Source: a virus. Taken from it: a DNA stretch of 36,888 bases. The stretch is taken from positions 1 to 36,888 of IMG/VR virus record IMGVR_UViG_3300009091_000231; one strand, written 5' to 3'. The position numbers and the translations under genes are program-made. Numbering within the stretch: position 1 is the first letter of the stretch; each line of letters opens with the position of its first letter. Under the pieces are notes generated by a model, which was not told the DNA's origin, searched no databases, and saw only the letters and a program-made list of their open reading frames with translations. Of the stretch, positions 3,709 to 35,546 are shown piece after piece.

Positions 3709-3730
3709 ATAATACTCTCTTTTTTGAGTG

Positions 3731-3738
3731 TATTTATA
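3731..3738 (-). promoter_or_regulatory. T4-type late promoter box for the small Cys-containing gene
   Basis: On the minus strand this reads TATAAATA, the exact T4 late consensus, about 22 bases before ATG 3708. It lies immediately downstream of the stop of the tail-fibre gene (3741). Confidence 0.75.
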
Positions 3739-3740
3739 CT

Positions 3741-4520: not shown

Positions 4521-4525
4521 ATCAA

Positions 4526-8573: not shown

Positions 8574-8579
8574 TATAAT
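8551..8579 (+). promoter_or_regulatory. Sigma70-type promoter for the sliding clamp
   Basis: TTGAAG (8551-8556), 17-base spacer, TATAAT (8574-8579). The -35 box and spacer lie inside the end of the DUF488 gene. The clamp ATG is at 8607 with AGGGAG at 8593-8598. This allows clamp expression independent of the polymerase transcript. Confidence 0.8.
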
Positions 8580-8606
8580 GGGAAAAACATATAGGGAGAT
8601 TAAAAT

Positions 8607-9356: not shown

Positions 9357-9360
9357 TATT

Positions 9361-9792
9361 ATGAGTTGGCTTGAATTTTCAAAAAAAGAAAAAAGACCTA
9401 CAATTGAACAAAGATTGAGTCAGTTGGAACATTTATTAACAGTTGAAAAAGAAGATAAACAAAAAGTTGAAGCTGACTTAAGAGAGGCTGAATCTGAACT
9501 TGTTGTTTTAAGAGAACAACAACAAGAATATGAAGATAAACAAAATAGTTCTGAACCATGGGTAATCGTGGTAGGGGAAAGTATTGATCCAATCAAAGGT
9601 ATTGAAATCAAATTAGATTGGAATGAAGCTTTTATTCAATATTTAAAAGAAAATGGAATAACTGCTAAAGATGAAGATGTAGCTGTTCAAAAATGGTTAG
9701 CAATGTTATATGCTGATTTAATGGATAAATTTGAACAAAAAATCATCGATGATAGTGATAAAAATAAGAAAACAGTGAGCGATTACATATAA
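9361..9792 (+). CDS. Coiled-coil protein of unknown function
   Basis: 143 aa, AAAGGA before the ATG. Residues about 14-62 are a long charged heptad-like helix (RLSQLEHLL, KVEADLREAESELVVL, EQQQEYEDK), a probable coiled coil. Residues 65-90 form a short strand-rich piece (PWVIVVGESI), and residues 90-143 are helical and acidic with AVQKWLAMLYADLMDKFEQK. I recognise no family. The position between clamp and RNase H suggests a replication or transcription accessory, but no motif supports that. Confidence 0.75.
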   Translation: MSWLEFSKKEKRPTIEQRLSQLEHLLTVEKEDKQKVEADLREAESELVVLREQQQEYEDKQNSSEPWVIVVGESIDPIKGIEIKLDWNEAFIQYLKENGITAKDEDVAVQKWLAMLYADLMDKFEQKIIDDSDKNKKTVSDYI

Positions 9793-9804
9793 GGAAATAA
9801 TAAA

Positions 9805-10035
9805 ATGAACGAAATTATAATTTCACCAGCATCTATTGAAGTAATAGATACCAGTAAATTAACTGATAAACATGTTGTTATTGTGTATTTTGATATTGGA
9901 AATTTACCCACTACAAAGGCTCAAAAGTTTTTAGAAGATCGTAGAGATGAAATTAGGAAGATAATTCCTGAATCTACTAAAATAATTGTAGCTGTTAAAG
10001 ATAGGCTTCAAATAAAGATAGAAAAACAGGAGTAA
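9805..10035 (+). CDS. Small protein of unknown function
   Basis: 76 aa, AAGGAAATAATAAA before the ATG. It alternates strands and a helix: MNEIIISPASIEVI, HVVIVYFDIGNLP, a basic helix KAQKFLEDRRDEIRKI, then STKIIVAVKDRLQIKI. This suggests a compact alpha/beta fold. The DIGNLPTTKAQKFL element recalls small phage proteins seen beside replication genes, but I cannot name a family. It ends two bases before the RNase H start, so cotranscribed. Confidence 0.72.
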   Translation: MNEIIISPASIEVIDTSKLTDKHVVIVYFDIGNLPTTKAQKFLEDRRDEIRKIIPESTKIIVAVKDRLQIKIEKQE

Positions 10036-10037
10036 TT

Positions 10038-10970
10038 ATGAAACCACAAGGATGTGAATATTTGATATTCGATATATCGAATTTATTGTATCGTTCTTTC
10101 TATGCTCAAACAGGTGAGGATGATACAACATTAGCTGGATTAGCTTGTCATATGGCTTTAATGACTCTTAACAAATATTATAAACAATATAGACCTAAAA
10201 AAGTTGTTATGGCATTTGATAGAAGTAGTTGGAGAAAAGAATATACAGCTGAACATGATTATTTAAAACCATATAAAGGTAATCGTCGTCAGGATATGAC
10301 TCCAGCTCAACAAGCTAAATTTGAACGATTTAAAAACCATCTTGCTGAGTTTGAATCTTTAATCATTAAACATACTACAATTATTACTTTATGGGGTGAT
10401 AGATTAGAAGCTGATGATTTAATTGCTGGTTTTGTTCAACGTCCCTCTGAAAAAAATATTACTATTATTTCAGCTGATAGTGATTTAGCACAATTAATGA
10501 AACATGAGAACGTAACAGTAGTTTCACCAATAACTGATAAGATTCAAACAACATTAGAAAAATTTGAGAATGACCCTGAATATTACTTATTTCATAAATG
10601 TATTCGTGGGGATATTACTGATAATGTTCAATCAGCTTATCCAAGAGTTCGTTCAACAAAAATAAAAGAAGTATATGAGGATGCCACCGATGGTGATGGT
10701 TACAAATATATTAATTTTATGAAAGAGAAATGGACTGACCATAATAAACGTGAGTTTACTGTTGCTCAAATGTTTAAACATAATGAAATATTAATCAATC
10801 TTGAAAAACAACCTACTGATATTCGTCAGATTATAAATGAAACTTTAGAAGAAGAATTAAAATTGACAAAACAATTTTCTTATTTCCATATCTTGAAATT
10901 TGTTGGCAAATATAAACTTGAAAAAATTAAGGATAATATTGAACAATTTATTCCAATGTTAAGTTTATAA
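10038..10970 (+). CDS. rnh: RNase H / 5'-3' exonuclease of the FEN family, T4 Rnh-like
   Basis: 310 aa (T4 RNase H is 305), ACAGGAG before the ATG. It removes RNA primers from lagging-strand fragments. The acidic metal-site residues are present in order: D12 in IFDISNLLYRSFY, D61 in VVMAFDRSSWR, E124/D126/D127 in RLEADDLIAGF, D147/D149 in ISADSDLAQL, and D192/D195 in RGDITDNV at the helix-hairpin region. The basic arch region YLKPYKGNRRQDMTP at 75-89 is also conserved. Last gene of the polymerase-clamp-RNase H block. Its stop is one base from the stop of the converging membrane protein, with no obvious hairpin between them. Confidence 0.92.
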   Translation: MKPQGCEYLIFDISNLLYRSFYAQTGEDDTTLAGLACHMALMTLNKYYKQYRPKKVVMAFDRSSWRKEYTAEHDYLKPYKGNRRQDMTPAQQAKFERFKNHLAEFESLIIKHTTIITLWGDRLEADDLIAGFVQRPSEKNITIISADSDLAQLMKHENVTVVSPITDKIQTTLEKFENDPEYYLFHKCIRGDITDNVQSAYPRVRSTKIKEVYEDATDGDGYKYINFMKEKWTDHNKREFTVAQMFKHNEILINLEKQPTDIRQIINETLEEELKLTKQFSYFHILKFVGKYKLEKIKDNIEQFIPMLSL

Positions 10971-15879: not shown

Positions 15880-18800
15880 TTAATCGTCAAACATACCGTT
15901 GACTTCCAGTATTCTTATACCGTGTAATGCTACCCAAGATGTTTTCATTAGTCCTTTATATTTAGATTTAGTGGACAAAGCATCTTGAAGCAATTCAAAC
16001 CAAATACCATTAACATGTTCTGCTCCAAACGTATCATAAATTTCAATCATTGCTGCCTGAATTCCTGCTGGAGTTGTAAAAGTATTACGGAAGAAAAAGT
16101 TATTAATATCTATTGGGGCAAAATCTCGTGTTGGGTCTAACAAATAAGTTAATAAGGTTTTAAGTCCTAATGTTTTATTTACAAAAGCTTGACCCAATTC
16201 TAGTCCATAACGAGTTTCGGTTCCATACTTATCATAATAATTATCATCATACAACACACGATCAAGTGATGGAACTGGGGTTCCATCAGTTAATGATACA
16301 CCGGTTAATGCCTCTATTGCTTTATTCCATAAAAATTGTGAAATATTATTAGATTGTTTTTCACGAAACATTAACCATTCTTCGTGTTTATCTTTCAAAT
16401 CTAATTCACCCATTATAGTATTACTATGATCACGTAACGCTAAATCACGAGTAAACTGAATCATATAACGATTATTATCATTAATATAATTTGCCACATT
16501 ACGAATAATTGCTTCTCTATATATAACTGGACTAGATACGATAGGATTAATCGGTTCTCGAACATCCCATATAATACCATAATCTTGTTGAGCATATCCA
16601 TAAGTTGATTGTACAATATCACTATCTAGTGGTTTCTGTACAATAAAATATGGGTCAGGCATTGTTGACATATAATTAGTAATTTCTGAAGTTGACATAC
16701 TAGATGGATCAGTATTTTTTGTAGTAGATTTTTCTACCCAGAAATAATAATTAAGAGTAGAAGTTCCACTAACTCCAACTGATGTAACACTCTGTGAATA
16801 TTCATAATCTTCTTTCCAATGTACATCTGTAGTACCATCATCACTTAATGAAGGATCAAAATTTGATTCTGTTGAGGTTAATGAATGTATTGGTCTTATA
16901 ACATCAATATAATCATATAATTGAACAACCATATTTGAACCAACAGTAGATACTTCAAATCTATCTAATGTAGCATTATATACTACAGTACCAGTAGTAT
17001 ATAATTTTCCGTTTAGATATACATTAACCGTATCATTGGGATACCAAATATCTCCACCAACAGTAGCTTTCCAATATAATAATGGTTCTGTATCAGTACT
17101 TAACCATGCTCCTATAATACGTTGTTTAGCTGATAATTGTTGAATCCAATTATCAGATGTAAATATTGGAACAATTGTAATAGGTTTAACTACATTATTC
17201 AATGTTAATTGACCTACTTCACCATTTTGTATTGTAATTGGTGTATCATTAAAAGTATTAATTTCAAATGTTTGAATGTCTGTATTATTAATATTTCGCA
17301 AAGAATATTCAGTATTAGATGCTCCTATAACATTAATAAAATTAAAATCAGTCATAGTTCTGAATAAATTACCATCTGTAATTGTTACTTGTGAAGTACT
17401 TCCTGATGCTGAAGTAATACGAATATTTCCGTTTACTAACGTTGCAGTTGCATATATCCCCAAAGCTGTGTTGATTTTTAGCATCAATGCTGAAAATGTT
17501 TGGGTAGTGTCTCCAACAACTGAAAGACTTCTTGTAACATTATCAATATCGAAAGTTGCTGTATATGCAGTAGTATCATTAGCCAATCCTGTAGAACTTG
17601 AATCAACTTTTTCTGTGGTATATATAACTTCTTGATAACCATACGAAGCTACTGGAATAGTTGTTGAACCTTGTGGAAATAATCCATTTGGAATAGTAGA
17701 AATAGTAATTATATCTCCTAATGATAACACTCCAGAATCAACTTTAAAAACTTGGATAGGATTTTTATTATTCCCAATATTAATTATAGTAGCAAGAATA
17801 ACTGGACCTGCTATATCAGTTATAAGTCCATTATTGTTCACAGATGCTATACTAAAAGTTTGTGGATTGTCTCGAGTTGCAGCATCTACAACATATTGAG
17901 TTTGATTTTGTAATTCAGTAGGTAAAGCAGAAGTGGCAGTAAAATATACTATCTGTCCAGTTATATAAGAACCTGCTGGTACTGTTACAATTGTTGGATT
18001 ACCGAATCTTATAGTTCCATCAGATATATTTCTAGTACGTTTAAATAATAATTTTCTAGCTGTTCCAGTTATCTTTTGATTTTGTGGAATAGTTATATTA
18101 CCTTGTTGTTGTAAAGCAATTGCATCCCATTCTGAAGGAACAACATTTGAACGAACCCATTGATATACTTTAATATTCGCATATTCAGCTATATTACCCC
18201 ATTTGTATAATCTATCGTTAATATCTGGATAAACACTTTCATCATAATAAGGAATATACCCAAGTTGAGAAGTATCTAACCATATTGTTCCAACTTCAGC
18301 AAAATCCCAAAAATGTCCTGGAATATCAGCAGAATTCATTGTTACAGAATAAGTAGCAGGATCTTTATCACTTTTTAAATTAATATTATATAAGGCTTTA
18401 TAACTATGTATTCCAAATGCTGGATGCCATAAAGCAATTCTATCAATAATTATACCTGTTTTTCTATCCACTAATTTTGCAGGATTGAGTTTGTCAATGG
18501 ATGGTCTAACGGTATAAATGTGAATAATATCAAAAAATGCTGATTGATCTATACGAGTAACTTCTGAGTTTAATTTAACGTATTGACGTGTACCAGTATA
18601 TTGATCTATTAATAAGTTTGTGCTATATAAACTATAATCCACATCAAAATATGTTAATTTCCCATTATCTTCATCATATGGTATAGGTGTAGTAACTGAA
18701 ATATATGTAATATTTCGGAGCTCATCAAATACAGTACCATCTACAATATATGTACCATTATTGTGAACTGTTTGACTTATTGTCACAGTAGTTCCAGGAT

Positions 18801-21800
18801 ATAAACGTGTTGTCATATCTTCTGCTACTGAAAAAGTATTAGTAGAATCAATAATAGCAGTAGATGAAAATGAATGTATTATGGATATCATTTTACTAGA
18901 TATATTAGCATTACGACGAATAATCCGAATATCATCACAAGGCTCATCATGATGCCAATAAACATAATTAGATGTTATATGAATTTTATTATTAATTAAT
19001 GTAGTCCAATCAACAGTATTCCAACTTCTTAATGTATTATCTGTAGTATTATACCAATATTCAAAATCTGAACTACTTATAGGAGATGGTGGAATTGGTG
19101 CTATAAAAACACGACTCAAACTAGATATGTCAGAATCTAAGAAAAGAGGTTGAATAATTTCAGCACGTTGTTCTGGAAAGTTATTCCAACGAGAATCATC
19201 AGCAAATGATACTAATTTAAATCCTTTTGAGGTTACAGCATATGTAATATCTGCTCTTGTAATATCATCTTCTAATCCAACAAATTCAAAACGAATATCA
19301 TCAACTATTGCATCATTTGTAAATAATAATATTTCTGGATATATACGAGGTCTATTATCACCAAATTCAGCAATTTTAACCGCCCAAAATTCATCAATCT
19401 TTGCATCAATAAATCGACGTGAATTAATATATGCTACTATACTAGATACAGAACCTTTTGCGTGCAACATTCCACGATAAAAAAGGAATTGAGATTTTGA
19501 ATTTACATTCAACATTTCCATATAAGGTACTTTACCTGTATATCCTAACAATGAACGAGCAAGTTTAATATTAGGGGAATCTTCTGAACCAGCATATGTA
19601 TCATAAAAGTTTTGTAAGTCTGTTGCTGATCCTTCAATATTACGATTAAATGCATTACCTCTTAAATAAAAACCACCTAATGTTGGACGTAAAGTATTTT
19701 CTGCTTTTTTAAAAAAATTCATTTCAAATTTTGAGGCATATAGTCCTAAAAATGAATCATATACTAAAACATTACCAGCTGTGTACGGATTAAATAACAA
19801 GAAATGTTCATATCCTTCTAAGAAGAAATGTCCTCCACCTAAATGAATATAATTATATGGATCACCTACATAAAACGGATCTACATCATTTGGTAATTGT
19901 GGGAGTATAGTAATACGATTGCGTTCATCTTGTCTATGAACTATAAGTTTATCAGCACTTAGTGCTCTACCATATTGGTCAAATATAGTTTGACGAACTC
20001 TTATATCTGTATATGGACCTGATATAACATTAGATAACACTCCTAATGGAGTATCTAACCATATATTATTACGAGAAGGATTAATCTCAAAACTTGGATA
20101 TGAACGTAACATATCTTTAACAGCAAGATAGAAATGTCCACTACCTTGGGTTAGTAAATCAATATGAAATGCTGTATAGGTAATATCTTTAGAAGCTGAT
20201 AATTTAATAACTCCATCAGTAGCAGTTTTAACTACAAAATATGTTTCATTAGCATCTAAAGGAGATGGTAAAGAACCAGTTGTTGAAACTTGAATAGCTG
20301 TACCATCATTCCAATATGGAATAGTATCTACTACTGTTAATGTATTATCAGTAATATTAACAGTATATTCAAAACGGTCATTTACTACCATACGAGCTTT
20401 ACGTAATCCATAAGCCCAATCTATAAATCTTTCTAATTCAAGAGACCAATTAATTAACCTTCCAGTATTAAAATCAAAATCACCAGAATCAGCAGTATTA
20501 AAAATAACACCACTATCCTGTTGATATTCAGCATATCCATCAATTGTATTAATTAATGTCTGCATTCCAGTTATAACTTGTGGAGATGTTAGAATAAGAA
20601 CTTTACTTTTGTCTAATGCATAATGATACCAAGTTTCTTTTGAATGACTTTCACCACCAAATACATTAAACGAACTTGCAATTTCAGCGATTGTGTGAAT
20701 ACTAACACCCATTGATACTATATCAATACTAATATTAGTAATAGAATCATTAAAAGATTCAGATAATTTAAATGATTGATTTCCTGTATTAATAACATAA
20801 TATGGAGTATTTGGAACCAATGGAGCTGGTAAAACTTTATCAGAACTTAATACCACCATATCTCCAGTCGACCAAGGAAATACAAAAGCAGCTATTGTAA
20901 TAACTCCATTACCAACTGTTCCAACTAATTGTTCTAATACATTAATACGAGTTCTATCTACACTTGATTCATATACAGAAGATACAACAGTAAAATTACC
21001 ATTTATAGAAGAAGATCCTGTTACAGTAATAGTAGTATTGTATACAAAAACATCTGTTTCATTTCCAGCAACATAAAAACGATTTGCTACTGAATCTATA
21101 CCATTAATTAAATAACGATAGGCATAACATTCATCAGTAACCGGATCAACAATAAATGGATAGGCTTTAACATCATAATAATACATATCTCGAGCAACAG
21201 AAGCTAAACTTGTAAGTTCAAGTTTCCATTTATTTTGGTTATTGTACTGAATAATAGAAGGTGGAATACCAACTACACTAATATTAAAAGCATCAATCCA
21301 TAATTCTCTAAAAGAACCATTATTAATTAAAACCACATTATAATCTGTATTAATAATATCAAATTTTTTATTAGCAATATCTAAGGTACTTGTATCAACA
21401 ATACTATTAAATTGATAAGTTAATAAAGGTGTCCAACCAGCCCATAAGTCTCTAAATTCAACATTTGTATCATAACCAGCAAAACGATTAAAGTTAACAT
21501 ACCATTGATTTAACCCCTTCGCGACATATACTCCATTAACTCCGTACATATCACCATGAAACAAAACATCTGAGTGACTATACACTTGTCCAAAAGTAGT
21601 ATCAACTTCTAATCCGTCTACATATGTATATCTTGGACCAAATGATGCACGAAGAAACTTAACAGGTTGCATTAAAAATGCAATGATAGGATTTTCGTAT
21701 GGATACTGAGGAGATATATTCCACTGCCATTCAATAATATTGCCATCACCAAAAATATAATCAGCATCAGGTACTTTTATTTGATTCATATTCGTAAAAA

Positions 21801-24800
21801 ATGAACGAACATGAGCATCTGATGTTACATAATAAGGAGGTAATAGTTGATCAGGAGTATATCCACCTGTTATAGTAGAATTAGTAATATTAACACTAAA
21901 ATAAATATATGTTCTTAATGATTGACCATCAGTACCTGAATTACCTGTACTTACTCTTCCATCGGGATATGTTCGTCCAGCAGGAACTTGTCCGGTACGT
22001 ATATTCTCCCACATTCCAGTTCCAAGAGAAGAACCACTTGGAGCATAATTAAATATCCAAGTACGTGTACCATTAGTTTGTTTATATTCAGTATCCCACC
22101 AAGTTGGTTTACCATCAAATCCTTGTAGTTTCCAAGGTTCTAAGTGTGGATATGGTGTACCATACCAACTTGTATATAAAGCTTGCCAACATGCTGATGG
22201 GGATGGAGCAGTATATGAATGTGGTGGAGTTAAAATAGTACTAGTTATATAATTCCAAGTAAAAGCATCTGTTTGTCTATATTGAGTATTAACAAATGGA
22301 ACTGGTACAGAATGATTAATAACATATTCATCAAAACGTTTTCTATATTTTTGATCATAAACAAGTTGTTCAGATGAAGTTGGTGTTAATGTAGAATAAT
22401 CATATACAGGTACTACTCCTATACACATCTCATATAATCTATTTTCAAGTTCTAAATATACTTCACCTAATAAAGTTTGAAAATCAATTTCTTGCCATAA
22501 TAGTTGTATATCACCAGCTCCAGGAGTGGTAACTCCTATCCAATTTAATCCAGATTTTCTATAAACAGCATGAGTAATAATATTGTAATAGTATATTCCA
22601 TCTAATATTTCAACACCATTATAATAAAAAGATGGATGTACAGCACTTGCCATATACATTTCAAAACGATAAAACGTACGTGGAGAACCAGTTTTATACC
22701 AAAATACTCCTGAACGTATTTCAGAACCACCATATTGTGTTAAAAATGCAGATTCAGTTGCTGGTGGAGCTGTTAATCCTGAAGCTCCTAATGTTTGTCC
22801 TGATATACGAGGGTCAGCTAAAGATATTATTTTACGAGCAATTGCATCTTCTTCAGCTAAACTATATACAATATCAGTTCTATGTCCATCATGGTGATAA
22901 ACTTGTGTAAATGTACCATCATCTAATAGATGTGGTTGATAATATGGAGCTAATCCAAACATAGGAGCAGTTGCAATCCAATTACGAACACCATTACCAG
23001 TTACTTCATCATATGCAGTAGTATCTCCATATAATTTTGCAACATAATCATTATCTTCATATAAAGCAATCACACTATTAGTAATATGTTGAGAAAATGT
23101 TTCAACTCCTTCAACAACATATTGTCCACATAAATCAATAACAGCACGATTAAAAATATCTCGAACAAATCTAATATTAGCAGCATAGTCATTACTAGCA
23201 TACTCAATTACACCAACAGGAGTAGTATTTGTTACATTAATAGCAGAAATTAAAGTGTCAAATGCACCATTAAATTCTTTAATTGTTCCTCCAACACCAT
23301 AATTATATTCTGATTGAACTTTTGTATATACTCCACCACTAATTAATCCTAATGTTGGTGCTTGATTATCAATTATACCTCTAAAATGTGTAACTAATTG
23401 TGATAAAGATACACTTGGTCTATTACGATGTTCTGGATTATATATCCATTGTTTTACTACTTCCCAATCACCATTAGCAGAACCAACTGGAACTACATTA
23501 CGTTTTTTATCTACATATTGTGGAACGTATTGTTCATTATTAGTTCCACGTCTCCAAATGGTACGAAGAGTTGGATCAGCATCGTTTATAATTACTCCTG
23601 GTATTACTATCCAAGATGTTGTAGCAACATTACGACGATATAAAGTATTAGTAGTTGTGTTAAACCATAAGGCTTGATCCATAGTCCATAATTCAATAGG
23701 ATCTGTAGATTGAACTATAATTGTTCGTAAAGTAGTACCATTTACTGTGGGGAGTAATACACTATCAGACCAAGTATACCCATCCCAATATAATACTTTT
23801 GAAGTAAGTTGACTATACCAATATTGTCCAACTACAGGAAGTAATAAATTTCTATATCCATATAGATAATTATCATCTGTATCTAACGAATGTGGTGCTA
23901 ATAAATGTTGGTCAAATTCAAAGTCAATTCCATTATTTGTTACTACTATACGACGTTGAACAGCACTATTAATTGGGGCATCTTGGCTTTCTTTAAATGT
24001 AATGATAGGTGAAGCAAACATAACATTTCCAGACATAAGATCATATACATTAAACAATGGATATTGATTTATCTCAATTTTATGTTGTTCTGCTAATACA
24101 AATTCTGTTAAACTTTGATATATTGGTTGTTGTGAACTATTAACTAATGCTGAAAATGTAGCATCATCTTCAATAGTACGAACTGGAACAGCATACATTC
24201 CCATATCACGTACAGAAGCAGGACTAACTTCAATACGAATAAGGTCTCCACTTTTTAAAATAGCTAATGATGTAAAAGTTATTCCAACTACAAATGGTAT
24301 TCTACCTGTGAATGTAGTAATATTACCAACAGCAGTGTAACTAGGAAATCCTGTTGAAATATTTTCTATATATGTTCCATATTGACGAATCCCATTAACG
24401 TATACTCTCAATTCATTACTATTTGGTGTAGCATATGGATTAGCATTACTAGAATTATATTGAAGAGATGGCACTAAATCAATAGTTGTTGGAGGGGTCT
24501 GTCCAACAGTAAGTTCTTGGAAAGTATATCCAAAGGATATTTGATCAACTCCTGGTAATGTATTTGTAACAGCATCATTCACTTGAAAGAAATTCAAAGA
24601 TTGTGGATTAGTTGCAGTTGTCGTAATATTAGTAATATCTAACACCCAATGAACGTGATATCCGTACCAATTATCTCCTCTTGAAGTTTTAGTGGGAATA
24701 ATACGAGCTTGATTTAAACCACCAACTGATGGTGCCATAAAGGTAGTTTCTTTAATTCTTACAACGGTAACAAAATAATTTCCTTGAAGAGCAGGATTAG

Positions 24801-26829
24801 TTGATGTATCCATTTCCCTATATTCTGACCAATCTACTGTGTATACATCATGAAATCCAATATCATTTACAATACTAAATTTATATTCTGGAATGAAAAC
24901 ATCAGTTAAATTAATATTAGCATTCATAGTAGATGTTTTATCAAACAAATAGATATACCAAGCACCACTAACTCCTTCTACTTGATATCCTTTTATTGGT
25001 TCCAACTCAATACGTGATGGACTTATAGTTGAAACTTCAAATACATCTGTTGATGTTTTACGATATTTCCAAGTACGTTGAACTTTAGACCATTCATTTA
25101 ATTCTAAATTGGAATCATATTCTAAAATCGGAACTTGAGCTCTTTTTACGTTAGCATATGTATTAATAGCTGTTTTATGTTGCCATCTATTTTGATTAGA
25201 CCATTGATTTAGTACTTGAGATACACAATCTATATTTTCATCCCAATTTTCTGTAGCAGTTGTTAATGTTAATACTGCTGAAAAATTAGAAGCTACAACA
25301 TTCCAACTAGGAACAAATAATGGATCAGATGGTATAGGATGAAGTAGATCACCATATTGTTTTAGTTGATTTGTTGAAGTATCATACCATAAGGTAAGAG
25401 GTAAAGGTTGCCCACCAACCATCATTGTTGGGTCAGCACTATTATAAGCAATCCAATCTGCTTCTGTTGAAAATGATATTTTAGTTAATAGGGTAGTATT
25501 CCAAGCAACATTACCAATACTATTATCATCCCATAATCCAATATCCCAACCTATATCGTTATGACATTTACAATTTACTTGTGTTTGAAATATTAACAAT
25601 AACTCAGAAAGAGATATATTAGCTATAAATGATTTATTAGTTGCTATCCAAGTTGATCCATCCCATGTATATAATATTTTAGAAGAAGGTTGATACCACC
25701 ATTCACCAATAAATGTGGGAGTAGGAGCAGTTTCACCATTATATGCTAATGGGGTTACTGTTTGAATAATAGTTGTATTTGTCACATCATCATATGTAGC
25801 TAATGAAGTTGTCCAATATTTGTTTTGCATATTAATAGTTGAACTATCTTTTGTTAAAAAAACAAATCCAGATACAAATAAATCATCTTGTTTACCTTCT
25901 ATTGACAATGTATTATCAGCAAAAGAAGAACTAAGTATAGTAAATAATGCTGGAATAATAATTTGAGCAACTATGGTATCAGTATATTCGATCCAAGTAG
26001 TTCCATTCCATTCTTGTAAATTATTAGTTGTTGTATTATACCACCAATCACCTATACTTGGATTAATAGGTTGTATAGTTGGAGCTATAACTTCAGCTAC
26101 TTTAACTTTCGTTTTATTACTACTAATATCATACGTTACACTAACAGTTCTCCAATATTTGTCAGTCAGTTGGGTTGTATTGGACAAGTTAGTATAAAAA
26201 GTAAAGTCAGTTGAAAAAATATTATCTTGTTTACCCTGTAATACAAAAGTATTATTAACAAAATCAATAGAAATAACTGGTAAATGAATACCACGTTGTT
26301 GCATTAATGTTTCATAAGATGCTACTTTATCAGAAGCTTTATTACAAACATTCTCAATAGTAAAATATTGTGGAGCATCAGTACTACTCATTCCATTCCA
26401 AAAATAATTTTGATAATTAACTAACATATCAATATTAATAGGAGGAACCCAATTAAATTCTAAAGCTGAACCCCAGATTGGAAGACGATCTATATCGACT
26501 CCTTGTAATTCTAATTGGGTGAGAAAATTATGGTATGATAAGGCTGTCTCTATAGTACCTATTTTTGTATACATTGTAGGAGCTAATTGAAAAGCCTGAC
26601 GATGGGCTTGGTCGTGAGAATTATTAGATACTTCTGGAATTTGGCGATCTACTACAGCATTTGGATTACCTGTTCCTACAAAACCAGAAACACGTATGGT
26701 ATCATCTTTTGTAAATTGACGATCAAATGCCATTTCTGACAAAGTGTTATTAACATCAGATCTATATACTTCTGGTAAGTAATCCTTAATATTAATTTGT
26801 GGCTTTTTGTGATCGCTATAGTTAGTCAC
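15880..26829 (-). CDS. Giant (~3650 aa) baseplate/tail structural protein at the gp7 position
   Basis: One uninterrupted frame of about 10.95 kb. TTG 26835 opens the frame, but AAGGA lies only two bases from it and eight bases from GTG 26829, so GTG (MTNYSDHKKPQ) is preferred: 3649 aa. It follows gp6, where T4 encodes gp7 (1032 aa), so a gp7-like or wedge-periphery role is inferred from order; I cannot confirm homology. It is built partly of repeats. Six to seven Trp modules (pattern WWYN-x-TTTN-x-L-x-x-W-x-G-x-x-W) lie near residues 240-260, 355-375, 460-480, 980-1000, 1030-1055, 1400-1420 and 2565-2590. LP-x-x-Tyr units lie near 2000, 2185 and 2970; NG-turn units near 1945 and 2690. The rest is Tyr/Trp/Asn-rich and beta-prone. 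The C-terminus (SWVALHGIRILEVNGMFDD) is helical. No catalytic motif seen. Confidence 0.85.
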   Translation of the reverse strand: MTNYSDHKKPQINIKDYLPEVYRSDVNNTLSEMAFDRQFTKDDTIRVSGFVGTGNPNAVVDRQIPEVSNNSHDQAHRQAFQLAPTMYTKIGTIETALSYHNFLTQLELQGVDIDRLPIWGSALEFNWVPPINIDMLVNYQNYFWNGMSSTDAPQYFTIENVCNKASDKVASYETLMQQRGIHLPVISIDFVNNTFVLQGKQDNIFSTDFTFYTNLSNTTQLTDKYWRTVSVTYDISSNKTKVKVAEVIAPTIQPINPSIGDWWYNTTTNNLQEWNGTTWIEYTDTIVAQIIIPALFTILSSSFADNTLSIEGKQDDLFVSGFVFLTKDSSTINMQNKYWTTSLATYDDVTNTTIIQTVTPLAYNGETAPTPTFIGEWWYQPSSKILYTWDGSTWIATNKSFIANISLSELLLIFQTQVNCKCHNDIGWDIGLWDDNSIGNVAWNTTLLTKISFSTEADWIAYNSADPTMMVGGQPLPLTLWYDTSTNQLKQYGDLLHPIPSDPLFVPSWNVVASNFSAVLTLTTATENWDENIDCVSQVLNQWSNQNRWQHKTAINTYANVKRAQVPILEYDSNLELNEWSKVQRTWKYRKTSTDVFEVSTISPSRIELEPIKGYQVEGVSGAWYIYLFDKTSTMNANINLTDVFIPEYKFSIVNDIGFHDVYTVDWSEYREMDTSTNPALQGNYFVTVVRIKETTFMAPSVGGLNQARIIPTKTSRGDNWYGYHVHWVLDITNITTTATNPQSLNFFQVNDAVTNTLPGVDQISFGYTFQELTVGQTPPTTIDLVPSLQYNSSNANPYATPNSNELRVYVNGIRQYGTYIENISTGFPSYTAVGNITTFTGRIPFVVGITFTSLAILKSGDLIRIEVSPASVRDMGMYAVPVRTIEDDATFSALVNSSQQPIYQSLTEFVLAEQHKIEINQYPLFNVYDLMSGNVMFASPIITFKESQDAPINSAVQRRIVVTNNGIDFEFDQHLLAPHSLDTDDNYLYGYRNLLLPVVGQYWYSQLTSKVLYWDGYTWSDSVLLPTVNGTTLRTIIVQSTDPIELWTMDQALWFNTTTNTLYRRNVATTSWIVIPGVIINDADPTLRTIWRRGTNNEQYVPQYVDKKRNVVPVGSANGDWEVVKQWIYNPEHRNRPSVSLSQLVTHFRGIIDNQAPTLGLISGGVYTKVQSEYNYGVGGTIKEFNGAFDTLISAINVTNTTPVGVIEYASNDYAANIRFVRDIFNRAVIDLCGQYVVEGVETFSQHITNSVIALYEDNDYVAKLYGDTTAYDEVTGNGVRNWIATAPMFGLAPYYQPHLLDDGTFTQVYHHDGHRTDIVYSLAEEDAIARKIISLADPRISGQTLGASGLTAPPATESAFLTQYGGSEIRSGVFWYKTGSPRTFYRFEMYMASAVHPSFYYNGVEILDGIYYYNIITHAVYRKSGLNWIGVTTPGAGDIQLLWQEIDFQTLLGEVYLELENRLYEMCIGVVPVYDYSTLTPTSSEQLVYDQKYRKRFDEYVINHSVPVPFVNTQYRQTDAFTWNYITSTILTPPHSYTAPSPSACWQALYTSWYGTPYPHLEPWKLQGFDGKPTWWDTEYKQTNGTRTWIFNYAPSGSSLGTGMWENIRTGQVPAGRTYPDGRVSTGNSGTDGQSLRTYIYFSVNITNSTITGGYTPDQLLPPYYVTSDAHVRSFFTNMNQIKVPDADYIFGDGNIIEWQWNISPQYPYENPIIAFLMQPVKFLRASFGPRYTYVDGLEVDTTFGQVYSHSDVLFHGDMYGVNGVYVAKGLNQWYVNFNRFAGYDTNVEFRDLWAGWTPLLTYQFNSIVDTSTLDIANKKFDIINTDYNVVLINNGSFRELWIDAFNISVVGIPPSIIQYNNQNKWKLELTSLASVARDMYYYDVKAYPFIVDPVTDECYAYRYLINGIDSVANRFYVAGNETDVFVYNTTITVTGSSSINGNFTVVSSVYESSVDRTRINVLEQLVGTVGNGVITIAAFVFPWSTGDMVVLSSDKVLPAPLVPNTPYYVINTGNQSFKLSESFNDSITNISIDIVSMGVSIHTIAEIASSFNVFGGESHSKETWYHYALDKSKVLILTSPQVITGMQTLINTIDGYAEYQQDSGVIFNTADSGDFDFNTGRLINWSLELERFIDWAYGLRKARMVVNDRFEYTVNITDNTLTVVDTIPYWNDGTAIQVSTTGSLPSPLDANETYFVVKTATDGVIKLSASKDITYTAFHIDLLTQGSGHFYLAVKDMLRSYPSFEINPSRNNIWLDTPLGVLSNVISGPYTDIRVRQTIFDQYGRALSADKLIVHRQDERNRITILPQLPNDVDPFYVGDPYNYIHLGGGHFFLEGYEHFLLFNPYTAGNVLVYDSFLGLYASKFEMNFFKKAENTLRPTLGGFYLRGNAFNRNIEGSATDLQNFYDTYAGSEDSPNIKLARSLLGYTGKVPYMEMLNVNSKSQFLFYRGMLHAKGSVSSIVAYINSRRFIDAKIDEFWAVKIAEFGDNRPRIYPEILLFTNDAIVDDIRFEFVGLEDDITRADITYAVTSKGFKLVSFADDSRWNNFPEQRAEIIQPLFLDSDISSLSRVFIAPIPPSPISSSDFEYWYNTTDNTLRSWNTVDWTTLINNKIHITSNYVYWHHDEPCDDIRIIRRNANISSKMISIIHSFSSTAIIDSTNTFSVAEDMTTRLYPGTTVTISQTVHNNGTYIVDGTVFDELRNITYISVTTPIPYDEDNGKLTYFDVDYSLYSTNLLIDQYTGTRQYVKLNSEVTRIDQSAFFDIIHIYTVRPSIDKLNPAKLVDRKTGIIIDRIALWHPAFGIHSYKALYNINLKSDKDPATYSVTMNSADIPGHFWDFAEVGTIWLDTSQLGYIPYYDESVYPDINDRLYKWGNIAEYANIKVYQWVRSNVVPSEWDAIALQQQGNITIPQNQKITGTARKLLFKRTRNISDGTIRFGNPTIVTVPAGSYITGQIVYFTATSALPTELQNQTQYVVDAATRDNPQTFSIASVNNNGLITDIAGPVILATIINIGNNKNPIQVFKVDSGVLSLGDIITISTIPNGLFPQGSTTIPVASYGYQEVIYTTEKVDSSSTGLANDTTAYTATFDIDNVTRSLSVVGDTTQTFSALMLKINTALGIYATATLVNGNIRITSASGSTSQVTITDGNLFRTMTDFNFINVIGASNTEYSLRNINNTDIQTFEINTFNDTPITIQNGEVGQLTLNNVVKPITIVPIFTSDNWIQQLSAKQRIIGAWLSTDTEPLLYWKATVGGDIWYPNDTVNVYLNGKLYTTGTVVYNATLDRFEVSTVGSNMVVQLYDYIDVIRPIHSLTSTESNFDPSLSDDGTTDVHWKEDYEYSQSVTSVGVSGTSTLNYYFWVEKSTTKNTDPSSMSTSEITNYMSTMPDPYFIVQKPLDSDIVQSTYGYAQQDYGIIWDVREPINPIVSSPVIYREAIIRNVANYINDNNRYMIQFTRDLALRDHSNTIMGELDLKDKHEEWLMFREKQSNNISQFLWNKAIEALTGVSLTDGTPVPSLDRVLYDDNYYDKYGTETRYGLELGQAFVNKTLGLKTLLTYLLDPTRDFAPIDINNFFFRNTFTTPAGIQAAMIEIYDTFGAEHVNGIWFELLQDALSTKSKYKGLMKTSWVALHGIRILEVNGMFDD

Positions 26830-26856
26830 AGGCAATGTCCTTTTATATCTTCTGAA

Positions 26857-26916: not shown

Positions 26917-29900
26917 TTAAACCAATCTAGCTGTTCCTACTACTGGCATAGTAAATGTAATAACAACTTCACGAGTACTTAAATGTATAACAGAAAATGG
27001 TTGAACTTCGTCAGAAGTTGTATTATAAACACGAACAATTGGATAGAAACCAAGATCATGTGTTATATTCCAAGAAGTTATTGGAACTGTTTGAGTATGC
27101 TCAAACGCATATTCATAAGTTACTTGTGTGAATACATTTGGATGTTGTACTGGACAAACTGTTTGTTGACCCATTCTAAGAACAGTGGCATTAATATCAG
27201 ATACAATATCAACATCATCGACGGTAACGTCTGGATAAAATAATTCATCCTCACGTGCTTGTATTTGAAACATTTCACCAAAAAAGTTATTTGCATAAGT
27301 CGGAACTAATACAACTGTACTTATTTCAATAGGCAATGCTGCATGAATTGCTGTTGCTAATTCAGTAAAATAAAAAGTTTCCCCAAATTCCCACACAGTT
27401 AAGTCAAAAAAGTTACGAACTGTTGATACTAACGTAGTTTTAATTTGGTTAGATGTCATAGTATTATCTGATGAACGTACTACTTTAAATCGAGCTTGTA
27501 AAGGTAAAACAGCCTTTGTCCCAAATAATAATTTAATTTTACCTGGGTGTAATACTAAAGTGTCAGAAATCATCTTGTTGTTAATAAGATAATTATATGT
27601 TAATCTTAAATCTAATGGGGTTGGAGCTTGAGGTTGAGCTGCTAACGGATCTTCTAACCATCGTTTTAATGATAAAAAGTATACTTTTTGTATAATAAGC
27701 GTATCAATAATATTTGAAGCCGCTGGGTCTACTAAATGATATCTTGGAGAATGGTGTAACCATAAAAAATTCAATCCAGAACGACCAATTTCTCTTTTAA
27801 CTAAACCAACAGATGTAGCTAATTCATCTACATAAGCACTTAAAATATCAGGAGTTGGTGACATAACAGTCCATTCTGAGGTTGGAGTAGTTCTGATAAA
27901 ATAAACAAAATCATTTACAGTTACTTCAACTAATGTTCCACCAAAAACATCTCCTAATAAAAATATAACATTTGATATTCCTGTGGTATTCGCAATGTCT
28001 TCAAGCCAATCTACTCCTGATAATACAGGAGTACCACCTAGTATTTGAACTGAGATATCATTTTGACCTATAATATAATATATTGGAAGAACAATTCGAA
28101 TTCCAGTTTCAGGTAAAGGAGCAAGGGTCTGTGTTAAATCTACAACTATTTTCGGTTTTAGTATGTCAGCTAATCCTTGTGGATTATTATTGTCATTAAT
28201 ATTTAAATGATCGGGTACTCCATCACCATTTTCGTCTATAGGAATAACTGATACTCGTTTAGTGTCTGCTAATCCAATATTTACACCATCTTCAATAATT
28301 TCAAGTCCCAAAACATTAAAATTCCAATTTTGTTTTAATATATTATTACGATTATAATTAGGGTTAGCCTGTAATACACTAATTTGATCATAATCTGCAT
28401 TTAAAGTATTATAATCTATAACACGTGAAGCACTATTAGTATTCCAAAAAGTAGTTGTCGGACTTTGGAATATTAATCGTTTAGCTAATCTATTAACTTG
28501 ATATTTACTTTCACTTTGTTGTTGAATAACTGTTATTAATGGGACATTAATAAAATCTGCTGGCCATCCATATGTTGCTAATGCCGTACTTGGATCATCT
28601 GATGTTTGAACAACATACCATTCATTATTAGCCAAATTATAATACATCTCAATATTAGATGGAGATGGTGGTGGTGTTAATCCAGCAGACAATCTAATTT
28701 TTTCATCTGAATTAAATACGCGACGAAATGCTGATGCTGGAACTCCATAACTCGAAACATACAAAAATACATCTGTTGATGATAATAATGGTTCAATATA
28801 AGTAGTGATAAGATCATTAATACCATTAACTATTGGGGTGGTTACTCCTTCAACTTTTTCTTGAAAGTACAATGCTCCATCATTTCCAAAGATTTTTACA
28901 TTTTCATAAGAAGTACTTGGATCATGCCATGGAATGTATTTTGAATCACCAGCAAAAGTTCTATTTAATGAACGTAATTTTAAAATAGAAGAATCTTGTA
29001 ACATAAAGTTATTATAATCTTGACCATTAACCATACGATCTTGAGAATAATATACAGCAGGAGCTGTTATTCTTATATGTTCTAACGATTCAGAAGCTGA
29101 ATTGTTTTGTAATGAATTAATTAAGGAAAAAGTAAATGTAAATGTTTGAGTTCTGTTATAAGAATCAACATACGTAAAGGCTGCTGTTTGATTAACAACA
29201 GATGATTGTGAAATTATAATATCCTGATCAACAGATGATCTACACCAGAAATCAAATGTTCCAGATGGAACATCGGCAAATTCACCATCACCAAATATAA
29301 TTCTGGCTCGATTATTATCTCTTGTTTCTACTTCATATTTATTTCTACGTGGATTAGTATTAAAAATAACATTTTGAGCATGAGCTACATCTACTTGAAC
29401 CCATTCACCTGAACGTCCCACAGTTGCATCACGACGATATGGTAATAATGAAGGTATATCTAATATAGCTCCAGTCACGGGATCTATATTATTAACCCAT
29501 ATATCAGTTTCATTCGCATTATTTAATGGAATTTCATAAATTTGGTTTGGGGTAATTCCATCAAAAGTACTACGAAATCTTTGAAGTATTCCTTGTTTTG
29601 TATAACAAAAGAATCCAGTGGTATGAGAAGTATCTCCTAATCCATCCTTACCATATAATAAGGTAAAATTTGAACCATTATATGGACGACGTTCTATAAT
29701 ACCATCTGTGGAATTATATTCCACAGGTGCTAATTCCATAGGAATAGCCTGATTATTCACATTAGCAGTATATGGAACCGCTCCAGTTGGTAATGGACTT
29801 ATATTTAAGGCGTATAATTCAAATAATACATTTTCAATTTGAAAACGATCTGAAGCTCTAACAGTACCAAAATTCTGCTCTAGTACTCTATTCATTACTA

Positions 29901-30357
29901 ATATAAATTGATCTTTCCATTGTTGGTTACTGGCGTCATTCCAACGAATAGTTCTATTAGACAAATTAGTACCATATGCGTCTATTATATTTTCTGTGGT
30001 AGTGACAGAGGTTATTTTAACCAAACCACGAGCTGGTAAAGGACGATCTGCTTTATAAGATACCAACTTAGCTAATCGTAATATAGAATCTTTACGTTGT
30101 GCTGCTGATAAAAAGTTTTCATGTGCATCTATATCAAAACGATAAGCCATCAATTCAGCAACATAAGCAAAAGATTCGATAAGAGCTATGAATTCACTTG
30201 ATTCTATAAAATCATTAAATGTTTCTGGAAAGTACAACTTAACATAATCAAGTAAACTCTGCTTGATTGTATTATAATCAAATGCAGCAAAATTTACGTT
30301 GTTGAAAGCTTCATACACTTTTTCCCAATTTTCTGCTCTGGCAACAAGACGACTCAT
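26917..30357 (-). CDS. 6: Baseplate wedge subunit gp6 (J-like), enlarged
   Basis: 1146 aa against 660 in T4. The N-terminal 120 residues match gp6 closely in layout: SLLDYVKLYFPETFNDFIESS, FIALIESFAYVAELMAYRFD, NFLSAAQRKDSILRLAKLVSY, then LPARG. The J-like core has ARIIFGDGEFADVPSGTFDFW. Extra parts: a calcium-loop-like DENGDGVPD at residues 708-716 and a C-terminal module (about 1080-1146, SWNITHDLG...VITFTMPVVGTARLV) that also occurs as two separate small genes at 12239-12713. gp6 forms the ring that joins baseplate wedges. The start overlaps the gp25 stop (TAATG), with AAGG seven bases upstream. Probably cotranscribed with gp25 from 30762-30769. Confidence 0.93.
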   Translation of the reverse strand: MSRLVARAENWEKVYEAFNNVNFAAFDYNTIKQSLLDYVKLYFPETFNDFIESSEFIALIESFAYVAELMAYRFDIDAHENFLSAAQRKDSILRLAKLVSYKADRPLPARGLVKITSVTTTENIIDAYGTNLSNRTIRWNDASNQQWKDQFILVMNRVLEQNFGTVRASDRFQIENVLFELYALNISPLPTGAVPYTANVNNQAIPMELAPVEYNSTDGIIERRPYNGSNFTLLYGKDGLGDTSHTTGFFCYTKQGILQRFRSTFDGITPNQIYEIPLNNANETDIWVNNIDPVTGAILDIPSLLPYRRDATVGRSGEWVQVDVAHAQNVIFNTNPRRNKYEVETRDNNRARIIFGDGEFADVPSGTFDFWCRSSVDQDIIISQSSVVNQTAAFTYVDSYNRTQTFTFTFSLINSLQNNSASESLEHIRITAPAVYYSQDRMVNGQDYNNFMLQDSSILKLRSLNRTFAGDSKYIPWHDPSTSYENVKIFGNDGALYFQEKVEGVTTPIVNGINDLITTYIEPLLSSTDVFLYVSSYGVPASAFRRVFNSDEKIRLSAGLTPPPSPSNIEMYYNLANNEWYVVQTSDDPSTALATYGWPADFINVPLITVIQQQSESKYQVNRLAKRLIFQSPTTTFWNTNSASRVIDYNTLNADYDQISVLQANPNYNRNNILKQNWNFNVLGLEIIEDGVNIGLADTKRVSVIPIDENGDGVPDHLNINDNNNPQGLADILKPKIVVDLTQTLAPLPETGIRIVLPIYYIIGQNDISVQILGGTPVLSGVDWLEDIANTTGISNVIFLLGDVFGGTLVEVTVNDFVYFIRTTPTSEWTVMSPTPDILSAYVDELATSVGLVKREIGRSGLNFLWLHHSPRYHLVDPAASNIIDTLIIQKVYFLSLKRWLEDPLAAQPQAPTPLDLRLTYNYLINNKMISDTLVLHPGKIKLLFGTKAVLPLQARFKVVRSSDNTMTSNQIKTTLVSTVRNFFDLTVWEFGETFYFTELATAIHAALPIEISTVVLVPTYANNFFGEMFQIQAREDELFYPDVTVDDVDIVSDINATVLRMGQQTVCPVQHPNVFTQVTYEYAFEHTQTVPITSWNITHDLGFYPIVRVYNTTSDEVQPFSVIHLSTREVVITFTMPVVGTARLV

Positions 30358-30786: not shown

Positions 30787-32259
30787 TTATCGACGCCAAA
30801 ATGGATTTCTTGGTATTTCTTTACCACCTTCCATTTTTCCAACATTTTTATCACTATATTGAAGCTCACCCTCGTGACCAGTATCTTTTTTAGTTATCAT
30901 TCTTCCCCAGGGTTCATGAGCTGGAACTCGATTAGTATAAAAAGCTAACAATGCTTCTTTTGCCTCTTTTGCAGATTCAGCCCCAGGACCGTTTAAATGT
31001 ATTTGAGTACCAGTTTGAATAATTTGTCCACCAGCTTTAATATTAGTAGCTCCATCAGAAGTATAATTTCCTTTACCGCCTGATTTTAAATTCATATCTG
31101 CTTTTGATGTTACATTTACCATAGCACCTGATTTTACATTAGTATCACTTTTCGATTCCACAAATAAAATATTACCAGTTTTTAGATGAATGTCTGTTTT
31201 AGCATACGCTTTGATTTCAGCATCTGAATACATGTGAATACCTTCTTTTGCGTACATTCTAATAGATTTATCAGAAGTCATATTAATATCTGAAGCTGCT
31301 CTAATACTCACTCTACTATTAGAAAATATATCTATATTACCAGCTTGATCCATCTCAACCCAATTATTACCTTGAGCTGTTGAAATATAAATTCGTTCAT
31401 TCGTATCATCTAATAATATCTGATGTCCAGACATAGTACGAAAACGCATTCTACAGTTTTCCATTCTATCATCCATTGACATAGAATGAAATCCAGGTGA
31501 AGTTATAGAATAAGTTTGAGAGTCATAATTTTTATCAGTTATTCCAGTTCCACCGCTTGGGTCAAATCGACTTGTTTGATAACCTTGTGTACTTGTCCAC
31601 CCATCACCACTATCCGTTGCTTTATCATCTTGAACTCTAGAACCAGAATATGCTAAATGACTAACATCAACACGAGAAACAGCATAATCAGCAGCTCTTG
31701 TTTGCCATTCAAAAGCTTGGTCACTATTACCAAAAGCTTTTTGTATATTACTAGCTAATGGTTGAATTAATTTATCTCCAGAAGAATATGGACCATAAGG
31801 TTTTGCTTTAGGTTTATCTCCTAATTCTGGATGATCTTCAAACATCCAACGACCGTGAGGCATTGTATGAGTTGAAAAAGCATCAAATACACAACCTAAA
31901 TAAATTCTTTGTTGGTGTTCTTCATCTAAACTCATAACAACAACTTGAGCACCTACTTTTGGAATAGCCCACATACCATAAGCGATACCACCTTCAGTTT
32001 GTTTAATTCCAGGTCCACGAGTACCTACAGAAGTTTGTCCACCAAATGGTGTTACATACATAGCCCAAGGCATCCCCTCCACATTATGTTCCCAAGAATC
32101 TCCCCAAGCTTGAACTAATACTCGAACACGACCCCATTGCATTGGATCATTTGTATCAATTACCGTACCTATAGCAACAATATCACTAAATGGAGTATTT
32201 GCATTATGTCCACCATTAGAATCTTCTAATAACTTTTTTTGTTTAGTAATTACTGCCAT
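30787..32259 (-). CDS. 5: gp5/VgrG-like central spike protein without lysozyme domain
   Basis: 490 aa (T4 gp5 is 575). N-terminal OB-fold at residues about 25-130: FSDIVAIGTVIDTNDPMQWGRVRV, then WAIPKVGAQVVVM and IYLGCVFD. The VgrG/gp5 hallmark TMSGHQILLDDTNERIYIST is at 275-294, followed by a repetitive triple-stranded beta-helix (NIDIFSNSRVSIRAASDINM onward) to about 425, and a conserved tail VPAHEPWGRM at 445-454. Between OB-fold and helix T4 has a lysozyme domain; the 130-270 stretch here shows no such catalytic pattern and looks like a linker. The muralytic domain is in the next gene upstream. AAAGGA before the ATG; no late box of its own, so probably read from the hub transcript. Its tip is the PAAR protein at 11434. 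Confidence 0.9.
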   Translation of the reverse strand: MAVITKQKKLLEDSNGGHNANTPFSDIVAIGTVIDTNDPMQWGRVRVLVQAWGDSWEHNVEGMPWAMYVTPFGGQTSVGTRGPGIKQTEGGIAYGMWAIPKVGAQVVVMSLDEEHQQRIYLGCVFDAFSTHTMPHGRWMFEDHPELGDKPKAKPYGPYSSGDKLIQPLASNIQKAFGNSDQAFEWQTRAADYAVSRVDVSHLAYSGSRVQDDKATDSGDGWTSTQGYQTSRFDPSGGTGITDKNYDSQTYSITSPGFHSMSMDDRMENCRMRFRTMSGHQILLDDTNERIYISTAQGNNWVEMDQAGNIDIFSNSRVSIRAASDINMTSDKSIRMYAKEGIHMYSDAEIKAYAKTDIHLKTGNILFVESKSDTNVKSGAMVNVTSKADMNLKSGGKGNYTSDGATNIKAGGQIIQTGTQIHLNGPGAESAKEAKEALLAFYTNRVPAHEPWGRMITKKDTGHEGELQYSDKNVGKMEGGKEIPRNPFWRR

Positions 32260-32280: not shown

Positions 32281-34227
32281 TTAAGCTACAGTAGTTGATG
32301 GACCTGTAACTACTGTACTGGAATTTTTGTTTGGAGTTGCTTGACCATTATCTATTTTATTAGAAGAAGAAACTGTAGCATTATCAGCTTTACTATCTGG
32401 TACCTTAGGGCAAGTAGATGATTTTGCTGGATCTTCTTGTTTCTTTTCTTCATCTGAACAACTTGTATAAGCAGATAACATATCTTTAGCTTTTGGTTGT
32501 TGTTTACTTGCTGTTTCAGAAACATTATCAGTATTAGTAACTTGTAGTTTATCATAATTATCATATGGAGCACCATTTTTAAGACGACCTCCCATAATAT
32601 TTTTTGCCCAAATTTGTACTTCAAGAGCTGTTGAATCAGTGGGAAGACCTTGACCTGTTAAGGCATCATCTGTTACATTTGCATGATGATTTCCATTTCC
32701 AGCCGCAATTTGTTTTAAAATAGCAGGACCTCCTCCTTCTCCTTGATTATGAGCAAGATATAAATCACTAGCTGTTACAACATGTCCAGGTAATGCTTTT
32801 TGTATTACTTTCGTATTGTGTTTCATATATCTTGCTGCAGCATCAGCATTAGCATTCATATCAAGCACACTTGCTCCTCTACCATATGCTGCCCAAGTTC
32901 CTCCTTGAACCCACCCATGTTTTGTTTTAGTTCTAGTAGTAAATTGGAATAAACCTTGAGCATTATGAGATGGTTTTCCCATATTAGCACCGAATTTACT
33001 TTCAACAGCAGCAAATTGTGCTAAAGTAAATTCATCAACACCATTATTAACAGCAGCGTTATGTATTGCTTGTTTAACTTCCTCTGGTGCTCCATCATAT
33101 CCTTTAATATTAGATAAATTTCTATCTCTTGGAACATCTTCTGAGACTTCTTGTTTAATTCTTGGATGGTCTATAATATCTGGTGGTGGTTTTTCTGGTA
33201 ATACTGCTGATGAAGTAGTAGTTGGACTTTTATTAGAACTACCTCCACACCCTATAACATTATCATAACATTCTTGAACTAATTTTCCAAGTTTAACATC
33301 TCTTTCTGCTGAGGTATTCTTTTCTTGAGTAAAGGAATTCTTTTCAGGTATACCCAATGCTTGTAAGTTTTGATAAAATTCTCCATTATCAAAAACATGT
33401 TGAATCCCATATATGAAATAATATCCAGAAAACCAAAAATCTACAGCATAATCATTAGACTTAGAAGTTTCATCTTCTGAAGTTTGAGATCCTGTAAATA
33501 ATGATTGATCATCATTGTTACGTGGCATTTTTATATTAATCTTAGCAAAACAAGGTGCTAATGACCAATCAGAAAATTTTGCAAAATTATCATCAGCAGA
33601 TGGAATATTAACACGTTGAGCCATATTTTTTGGATCAGTTGTAGCATTTATAGAACCTAATAAATGAGGATTACCAGTTATTTTTACTGCTGCTTCTATG
33701 GATTCTAATGAAGCATGTTTTGTCATACTATATGAAAATTGTGATGTTTGTTTTGTGTCTTGTGTATCTTTAATACTGGCTGTTTTTATATTTGTTCCAA
33801 AAAACACAGGAATATTCTGTCCATTTTGACGAGTTAATATATCAATACCAGCTGGATGTGTTCCAGCTATAGCTACTTGTTGTCCTGGTTGTTTATATGG
33901 ATTTGCTATAGTCATACCTTGAAGATATACCATTCCCATATTCATCTTGATATCAAACTCTAAAATATCAATATTCCTGCCAGTATAGATATAATCATAT
34001 TCAATTAGATTTTCTCCCATTTTAGCAGCACTTGCTCCACTAGCAGCCGCATCAAATGATACACTATGTGGTTGTACTTGTCGCTCAACTCTATATTCAA
34101 CTGTATATTCTGTTTTTTTATCCTTTCCAGAACCAGTAGGTTTAGACTCAACTCGTGAAAGAATTTTTGTAATATATTTGGTATTATCAACACCAACATC
34201 AGCCTCTGCTTTGATTTCAGAACACAT
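32281..34227 (-). CDS. Baseplate hub protein, C-terminal part with SLT-type lytic transglycosylase domain
   Basis: 648 aa in this frame. Residues 1-300 continue a hub-type protein: NLIEYDYIYTGRNIDILEFD at 73-92 is the hallmark of gp27-like hub proteins of many myoviruses. After a Ser/Pro linker (328-372) comes a lytic transglycosylase/goose-lysozyme-like domain at about 375-525: AAVESKFGAN with the likely catalytic E409, AQGLFQFTTRT at 423-433, and SDLYLAHNQGEGGGPAIL at 487-504. The tail (560-648) is low-complexity. It should cut peptidoglycan as the tail penetrates. ATG 34227 has no ribosome site, and the preceding gene's frame runs on through it. Base usage at third codon positions switches to this frame at 34227. 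The two ORFs are therefore likely halves of one ~967-aa protein. Confidence 0.85.
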   Translation of the reverse strand: MCSEIKAEADVGVDNTKYITKILSRVESKPTGSGKDKKTEYTVEYRVERQVQPHSVSFDAAASGASAAKMGENLIEYDYIYTGRNIDILEFDIKMNMGMVYLQGMTIANPYKQPGQQVAIAGTHPAGIDILTRQNGQNIPVFFGTNIKTASIKDTQDTKQTSQFSYSMTKHASLESIEAAVKITGNPHLLGSINATTDPKNMAQRVNIPSADDNFAKFSDWSLAPCFAKINIKMPRNNDDQSLFTGSQTSEDETSKSNDYAVDFWFSGYYFIYGIQHVFDNGEFYQNLQALGIPEKNSFTQEKNTSAERDVKLGKLVQECYDNVIGCGGSSNKSPTTTSSAVLPEKPPPDIIDHPRIKQEVSEDVPRDRNLSNIKGYDGAPEEVKQAIHNAAVNNGVDEFTLAQFAAVESKFGANMGKPSHNAQGLFQFTTRTKTKHGWVQGGTWAAYGRGASVLDMNANADAAARYMKHNTKVIQKALPGHVVTASDLYLAHNQGEGGGPAILKQIAAGNGNHHANVTDDALTGQGLPTDSTALEVQIWAKNIMGGRLKNGAPYDNYDKLQVTNTDNVSETASKQQPKAKDMLSAYTSCSDEEKKQEDPAKSSTCPKVPDSKADNATVSSSNKIDNGQATPNKNSSTVVTGPSTTVA

Positions 34228-35183
34228 TCAATTATTCTATGAATAGCATCTTCAATACTTACCCCAGCATCTACATGGACATTAGCAGGATCTGGACAAT
34301 GAGGTGTATCCTTTAATTGAACAGCTTGATCATTTACTTGATACGCTGGATTTCCTTCATAAGGTGCTCCACAACTAATAATATAAGTAACTGGACGTAA
34401 AGAGTTAACTAAATCTTCTGATCCTTTTATTTGACCAACTTGTTTTTTAACACAATCAAGATAATGTAAATAATTTTCATTAATTTCAAGTTCTAAGGCT
34501 TTTAAAGTTCCTTCAAATGATCCTTTAGCTTTGAAATTGAATGCTTTAGATGCTTTACTAAAATGTGGTAATCTTGCTGCACTGTTAGCAGCAGCAACAA
34601 AATTAATTTCATAATCACCACCAGCAACTCCAAAATTTCCTACAACATCATAAGCTATAAAAATAACTGGAGGGATATCACTTATAAAGTCAACTCCATC
34701 AGTATCATTATCAAAAGTATATCCAATAAAAAACGTTTTTAATACCCAAAAGGCACCAGCACTATCTACTCCTAATTCTAAACAACATCTTACTACTTGA
34801 TCTAAAAACATAATTCCACGAGGTTCTGATATTGATATACTACCTTCTAAGGCAATAGATGTTCCTCTATCATTCATAGTAGCAGAAGATGCTGTATATG
34901 ATGACCATTGTGTTTTTGTTATAGTAAAGGCAGCATCAGTAGACCCATTAATTAAAATACAATATTGACCAGTACCTCCGGATATTTCAATATTTTTTGG
35001 AGCGTATTTTCCTAATACACTATCCTCTCCAACTCTAAAATTAGCTCCTACTGGATGTTGCCAAGTATCTAATACAGTAGAACCAGCAAGTTTTGATGCT
35101 GTTTCTGATGAATCACATATAGCTAATACATGATAATAACTATATGAACGATACTTAGATAATGAATTTACTGGATTTGACAT
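34227..35183 (-). CDS. Baseplate hub protein, N-terminal part
   Basis: The frame opens at ATG 35183 (AAGG upstream) and stays open to 34005, but only residues 1-319 (to 34227) look coding. They contain SYYHVLAICDSSETASKL, GKYAPKNIEISGGTGQYCILING, ISEPRGIMFLDQVVRCCLELGV, PPVIFIAYDVVGNFG and LKALELEINENYLHYLDCVKKQ, ending in VSIEDAIHRIIE. Beyond that the frame gives a Leu/Arg-rich sequence with G/C-rich third positions, unlike the rest of the genome, while the -1 frame looks coding. So this is the front of a hub protein whose remainder is the 648-aa frame. The family is inferred from the downstream half and gene order (between gp53-like and gp5). Confidence 0.75.
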
Positions 35184-35207: not shown

Positions 35208-35215
35208 TATTTATT
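35208..35215 (-). promoter_or_regulatory. Weak late promoter-like box before the hub gene
   Basis: AATAAATA on the minus strand, about 24 bases before ATG 35183, overlapping the gp53-like stop. One mismatch to consensus in a very AT-rich context; the spacing is right. Confidence 0.35.
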
Positions 35216-35546
35216 ATACAGGAAACGGGGAACTAATCCTTGTTAACATTTCACTAAGCAATCTAGCTCTTGTTGGAACAGTCAGAGTTAATCCTTGTCC
35301 AAATGTGGTAACATCAGAAATAGTATTATATTGTAAGATAAACCATTGTAATCCAGCTTTACCATATAAATCATATGCTAATAAATCAGGTCGTTTATTA
35401 TAACGAGCTGTTAGTGTTAAAGTTATATCAGTAGGAGATTTAGTAAAAACTTTTCGTTCCCACCATCCAAGTCGTGTCTTAAAATCATCTGTATATCCAC
35501 CTTGAATGTATCTACCTTCTGTTTGTGTATTTGATTTTTGTGCCAT
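35214..35546 (-). CDS. 53: Baseplate wedge protein, gp53-like
   Basis: 110 aa (T4 gp53 is 196, so a short form). The diagnostic stretch is ARYNKRPDLLAYDLYGKAG followed by LQWFILQYNTISDV. It corresponds to the RPEELANAIYGNPQLYWVLL region of T4 gp53, and a LysM-like end TLTVPTRARLLSEML follows. gp53 bolts neighbouring wedges together beneath gp25 and gp6. The N-terminal 30 residues (TEGRYIQGGYTDDFKTRLGWW) are polar. AAGGA before the ATG; nine bases after the gp48/54-like stop. Gene order gp53-hub-gp5-gp25-gp6 supports the call. Confidence 0.75.
   Translation of the reverse strand: MAQKSNTQTEGRYIQGGYTDDFKTRLGWWERKVFTKSPTDITLTLTARYNKRPDLLAYDLYGKAGLQWFILQYNTISDVTTFGQGLTLTVPTRARLLSEMLTRISSPFPV

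Follow-up and report, generated by a model that had tools for sequence, protein, structure and literature searches.

Two overlapping open reading frames (ORFs) on the minus strand of the window, the whole 36,888-nucleotide stretch of viral DNA analysed here, are almost certainly the two parts of one baseplate hub gene of a contractile-tailed phage, with a net loss of one nucleotide at about position 34227. The front ORF extends over 34005-35183 (392 aa) and the back ORF over 32281-34227 (648 aa). On the basis of homology and codon use, the front part of the gene is assigned to 34227-35183 (minus strand, frame 0, 319 codons), and homology together with an SLT domain assigns the back part to 32281-34227 (minus strand, −1 frame, 648 codons). 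The junction that carries the net loss of one nucleotide was placed at 34225-34232 (minus strand) from the ends and starts of BLAST matches in relatives and from protein alignment. What remains of the front ORF, 73 codons at 34005-34226 (minus strand), is an out-of-frame tail and not a conserved protein. The loss of a single base at about 34227 would make one hub gene look like two. The initial annotation had listed such a loss among several explanations for the change of frame, and it is now strongly supported by five relatives in which the gene is a single intact ORF.

These relatives are five different phage contigs (L003, L024, L004, L027 and L028; L002 carries DNA identical to L003 on a second contig and was not counted separately). 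The initial annotation had proposed an alignment with related phages, in which a single intact ORF was to count against a programmed event, and in all five the homologue is one uninterrupted ORF over both halves, with 23-62% identity to the window hub. Gene order is as in the window, the hub lying between wedge-like and spike genes, and in contrast to the window copy the hub is unbroken. The front part is 62, 48 and 35% identical to the intact hub ORFs of L003, L024 and L004, respectively, and for the back part, identity to that L003 ORF is 48% over residues 2-608. According to the boundaries of the BLAST matches, which end and start at 2994/3001 in L003, 2994/3001 in L004 and 4180/4184 in L024, the junction comprises three nucleotides (one codon) in these relatives and two in the window. 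Protein alignment reveals no further length change at the junction in these three phages, and the two ORFs are therefore best read as one gene minus one nucleotide. In the more distant L027 and L028, the protein alignment places a few additional residues near the junction. Since five relatives carry an unbroken gene, the window points to an ordinary sequence error or a broken copy and not to a new form of gene control.

The residues that follow the junction lead to the same frame assignment. When read in the −1 frame, the 74 residues past 34227 match the L003 hub at E 1.3e-13; the 73-residue front-frame tail has no meaningful match to that protein (best E 2.2). Substitutions relative to L003 peak at third codon positions on either side: codon positions 1, 2 and 3 carry 90, 54 and 147 of them ahead of the junction and, counted in the −1 frame, 21, 27 and 30 past it, where the contrast is small. 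ORF320 of the isolated Xanthomonas phage XacN1, a single ORF of 615 aa, has no bearing on the junction because its match is limited to the front 180 columns.

Codon use changes at the same place. It had been claimed at the outset that the front ORF is coding only to about 34227 and the −1 frame from there on, which both codon use and homology bear out. Third positions of the front frame are 92% AT before the junction and 45% after it, where those of the −1 frame are 88% AT. In 20-codon windows, the best frame by mean log codon frequency turns from 0 to −1 between 34230 and 34215. The sequence also contains the GAA codon at 34229-34227 and the TGA directly before ATG 34227 in the −1 frame that had been described there, and the ORF coordinates agree that the front frame runs on without a stop for 73 further codons. 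This open tail counts against the loss of one base, since it is mildly unusual: for these amino acids and the codon use of the genome, a frame would stay open this long in only about 2% of cases (P about 0.02). The openness is not kept in relatives, however: in both L003 and L004 a stop ends the corresponding frame after 4 codons.

Structure prediction supports a gp27/VgrG-like baseplate hub fold, and a transglycosylase domain follows it in the protein. The model was that of the intact L003 hub (mean pLDDT 57.8, about 71-76 around the junction), in which the junction corresponds to residue 311, at the end of a helix. Foldseek returned 38 chains at E <= 0.001, the best of them nearly all hub or VgrG proteins, and comparison with hubs gave VIA-align Z scores of 9-14. 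The model resembles T4 gp27 (Z 11.8, rmsd 5.6, 255 residues), Mu gp44 (Z 11.2, rmsd 5.1, 259 residues) and VgrG1 (Z 9.9, rmsd 5.1, 249 residues), and its residues 10-600 align with structural neighbours across both halves; a sequence search of the PDB gave no match. The SLT transglycosylase domain lies at about residues 387-498 of the back part (Pfam SLT, E 6.6e-7), which also matches the transglycosylase family phrog_4067 (E 2.8e-21). In T4, it is gp5 that carries the lysozyme. The window differs from T4 in having the transglycosylase domain on the hub, and its hub copy is also frame-broken. The domain is thus found on the hub protein and not on the OB-fold spike. The L003 hub has an extra C-terminal region, roughly 150 residues past the end of the window protein.

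The hub gene is flanked by a gene for an OB-fold spike (30787-32259, Phage_base_V match) and by a gene of a wedge subunit family (35214-35546, family match); a second wedge subunit family gene occupies 26917-30357, likewise by family match. A very large gene of 3651 aa (15880-26835, minus strand) comes after the latter and has a same-frame counterpart in the 190-kb relative L003. Elsewhere in the window, two adjoining tail-fibre-like genes (3741-5311, minus strand) both match family phrog_25747 at their C termini; neither has a match in the 190-kb relative. On the strand opposite to the tail genes, 5422-10970 (plus strand) encodes a family B DNA polymerase (phrog_262), a weak match to a polymerase processivity factor and a 5'-3' exonuclease. 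Two further suspected frame breaks were rejected. The one at about 12478 consists of two small genes whose spacing differs in the relative, and the one at about 3750 is an independent gene, the ORF at 3394-3756 (minus strand), listed with a TTG start at 3756, for which ATG 3708 is probably the true start.

Regarding its cause, the loss of the base is probably a sequencing or assembly error. T4-like phages cannot do without their hub, and for this reason an error is likelier than a mutation. Otherwise, the loss would be a real mutation and the contig would come from a phage or provirus genome that is defective or decaying, a possible but rather unlikely origin; the phage would then make a truncated hub ending in 73 wrong residues. 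Single-base mutations do occur in virus populations, and technical indels usually arise in long homopolymers, of which there is none at the junction; this favours a real loss and speaks against a technical one. An isolated break also fits a mutation: the other window genes with a counterpart in L003 each match it in a single frame, and within this compared set the break in the hub is the only one seen. The other morphogenesis genes compared are intact, however, and with an essential hub a dominant genome carrying a broken copy would not be expected. Two exact patterns retrieved no further copy of this genome from viral_contigs, and a scan of genome_contigs found no relative.

A true split hub, in which the product of the front ORF and a 648-aa protein from an internal start would be made separately and assemble together, is very unlikely. 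An ATG does stand exactly at the junction and the front frame is open for 73 codons, and the initial annotation had considered such a gene while remarking that this ATG has no ribosome site. The latter point is correct: ATG 34227 shows no Shine-Dalgarno pairing (+0.2 kcal/mol), and 18 of the 19 other starts checked pair with the anti-Shine-Dalgarno at −2.4 to −8.0 kcal/mol. Stop-start coupling would not help either, because the front-frame stop lies 222 nt downstream of the internal ATG and is too far away. Moreover, the split would fall where a helix ends inside the predicted hub domain, in a fold that solved hubs match over both halves, and all relatives are unsplit. With neither a Shine-Dalgarno sequence nor coupling, the split gene finds no support. 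It is likewise very unlikely that the lineage recently lost one base and nevertheless obtains a functional hub, whether assembled from two polypeptides or produced through low-level recoding at the junction.

Also highly improbable, and contradicted by the evidence, is programmed −1 ribosomal frameshifting that would join both frames, either at the junction or at the A AAA AAA heptamer at 34113-34119 (minus strand). As the initial annotation had noted, the A7 run lies within the front frame; it is a perfect heptamer inside the ORF overlap, in the right register for −1 slippage. Programmed −1 frameshifts are known from phage genes such as those of tail assembly chaperones, and the window shares with them the overlapping frames, the −1 offset and a slippery-like heptamer inside the overlap. 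It departs from them in that the heptamer comes after the switch in homology and is not conserved, and in that relatives are unshifted, each having a single ORF that needs no shift. The heptamer is best regarded as a chance slippery-like sequence 36 codons past the real frame change. These 36 codons (34227-34120) are homologous in the −1 frame only, with 15 of 36 residues identical to L003, and a shift at the heptamer would therefore come too late; codon use between 34227 and 34119 had rightly been held against frameshifting from the start. As homology and codon use both switch at 34227, the A7 run was rejected as a recoding site. At 34227 itself no slippery motif is seen, the 73-codon front tail is not conserved, and the RNA of 34131-34260, a stretch that ends ahead of the heptamer, has no unusual fold in a calculation that leaves pseudoknots aside (z-score −0.22). 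A literature search found no precedent for a frameshifted hub. In sum, the candidate programmed shift is not supported, with the switch in homology preceding the heptamer and the relatives doing without a shift.

If it were true, recoding of an essential virion protein would be notable; the evidence is against it. For the annotation of this phage, both ORFs should be merged into a single entry, a hub gene with a broken frame, and no recoding site should be annotated at the A7 run.
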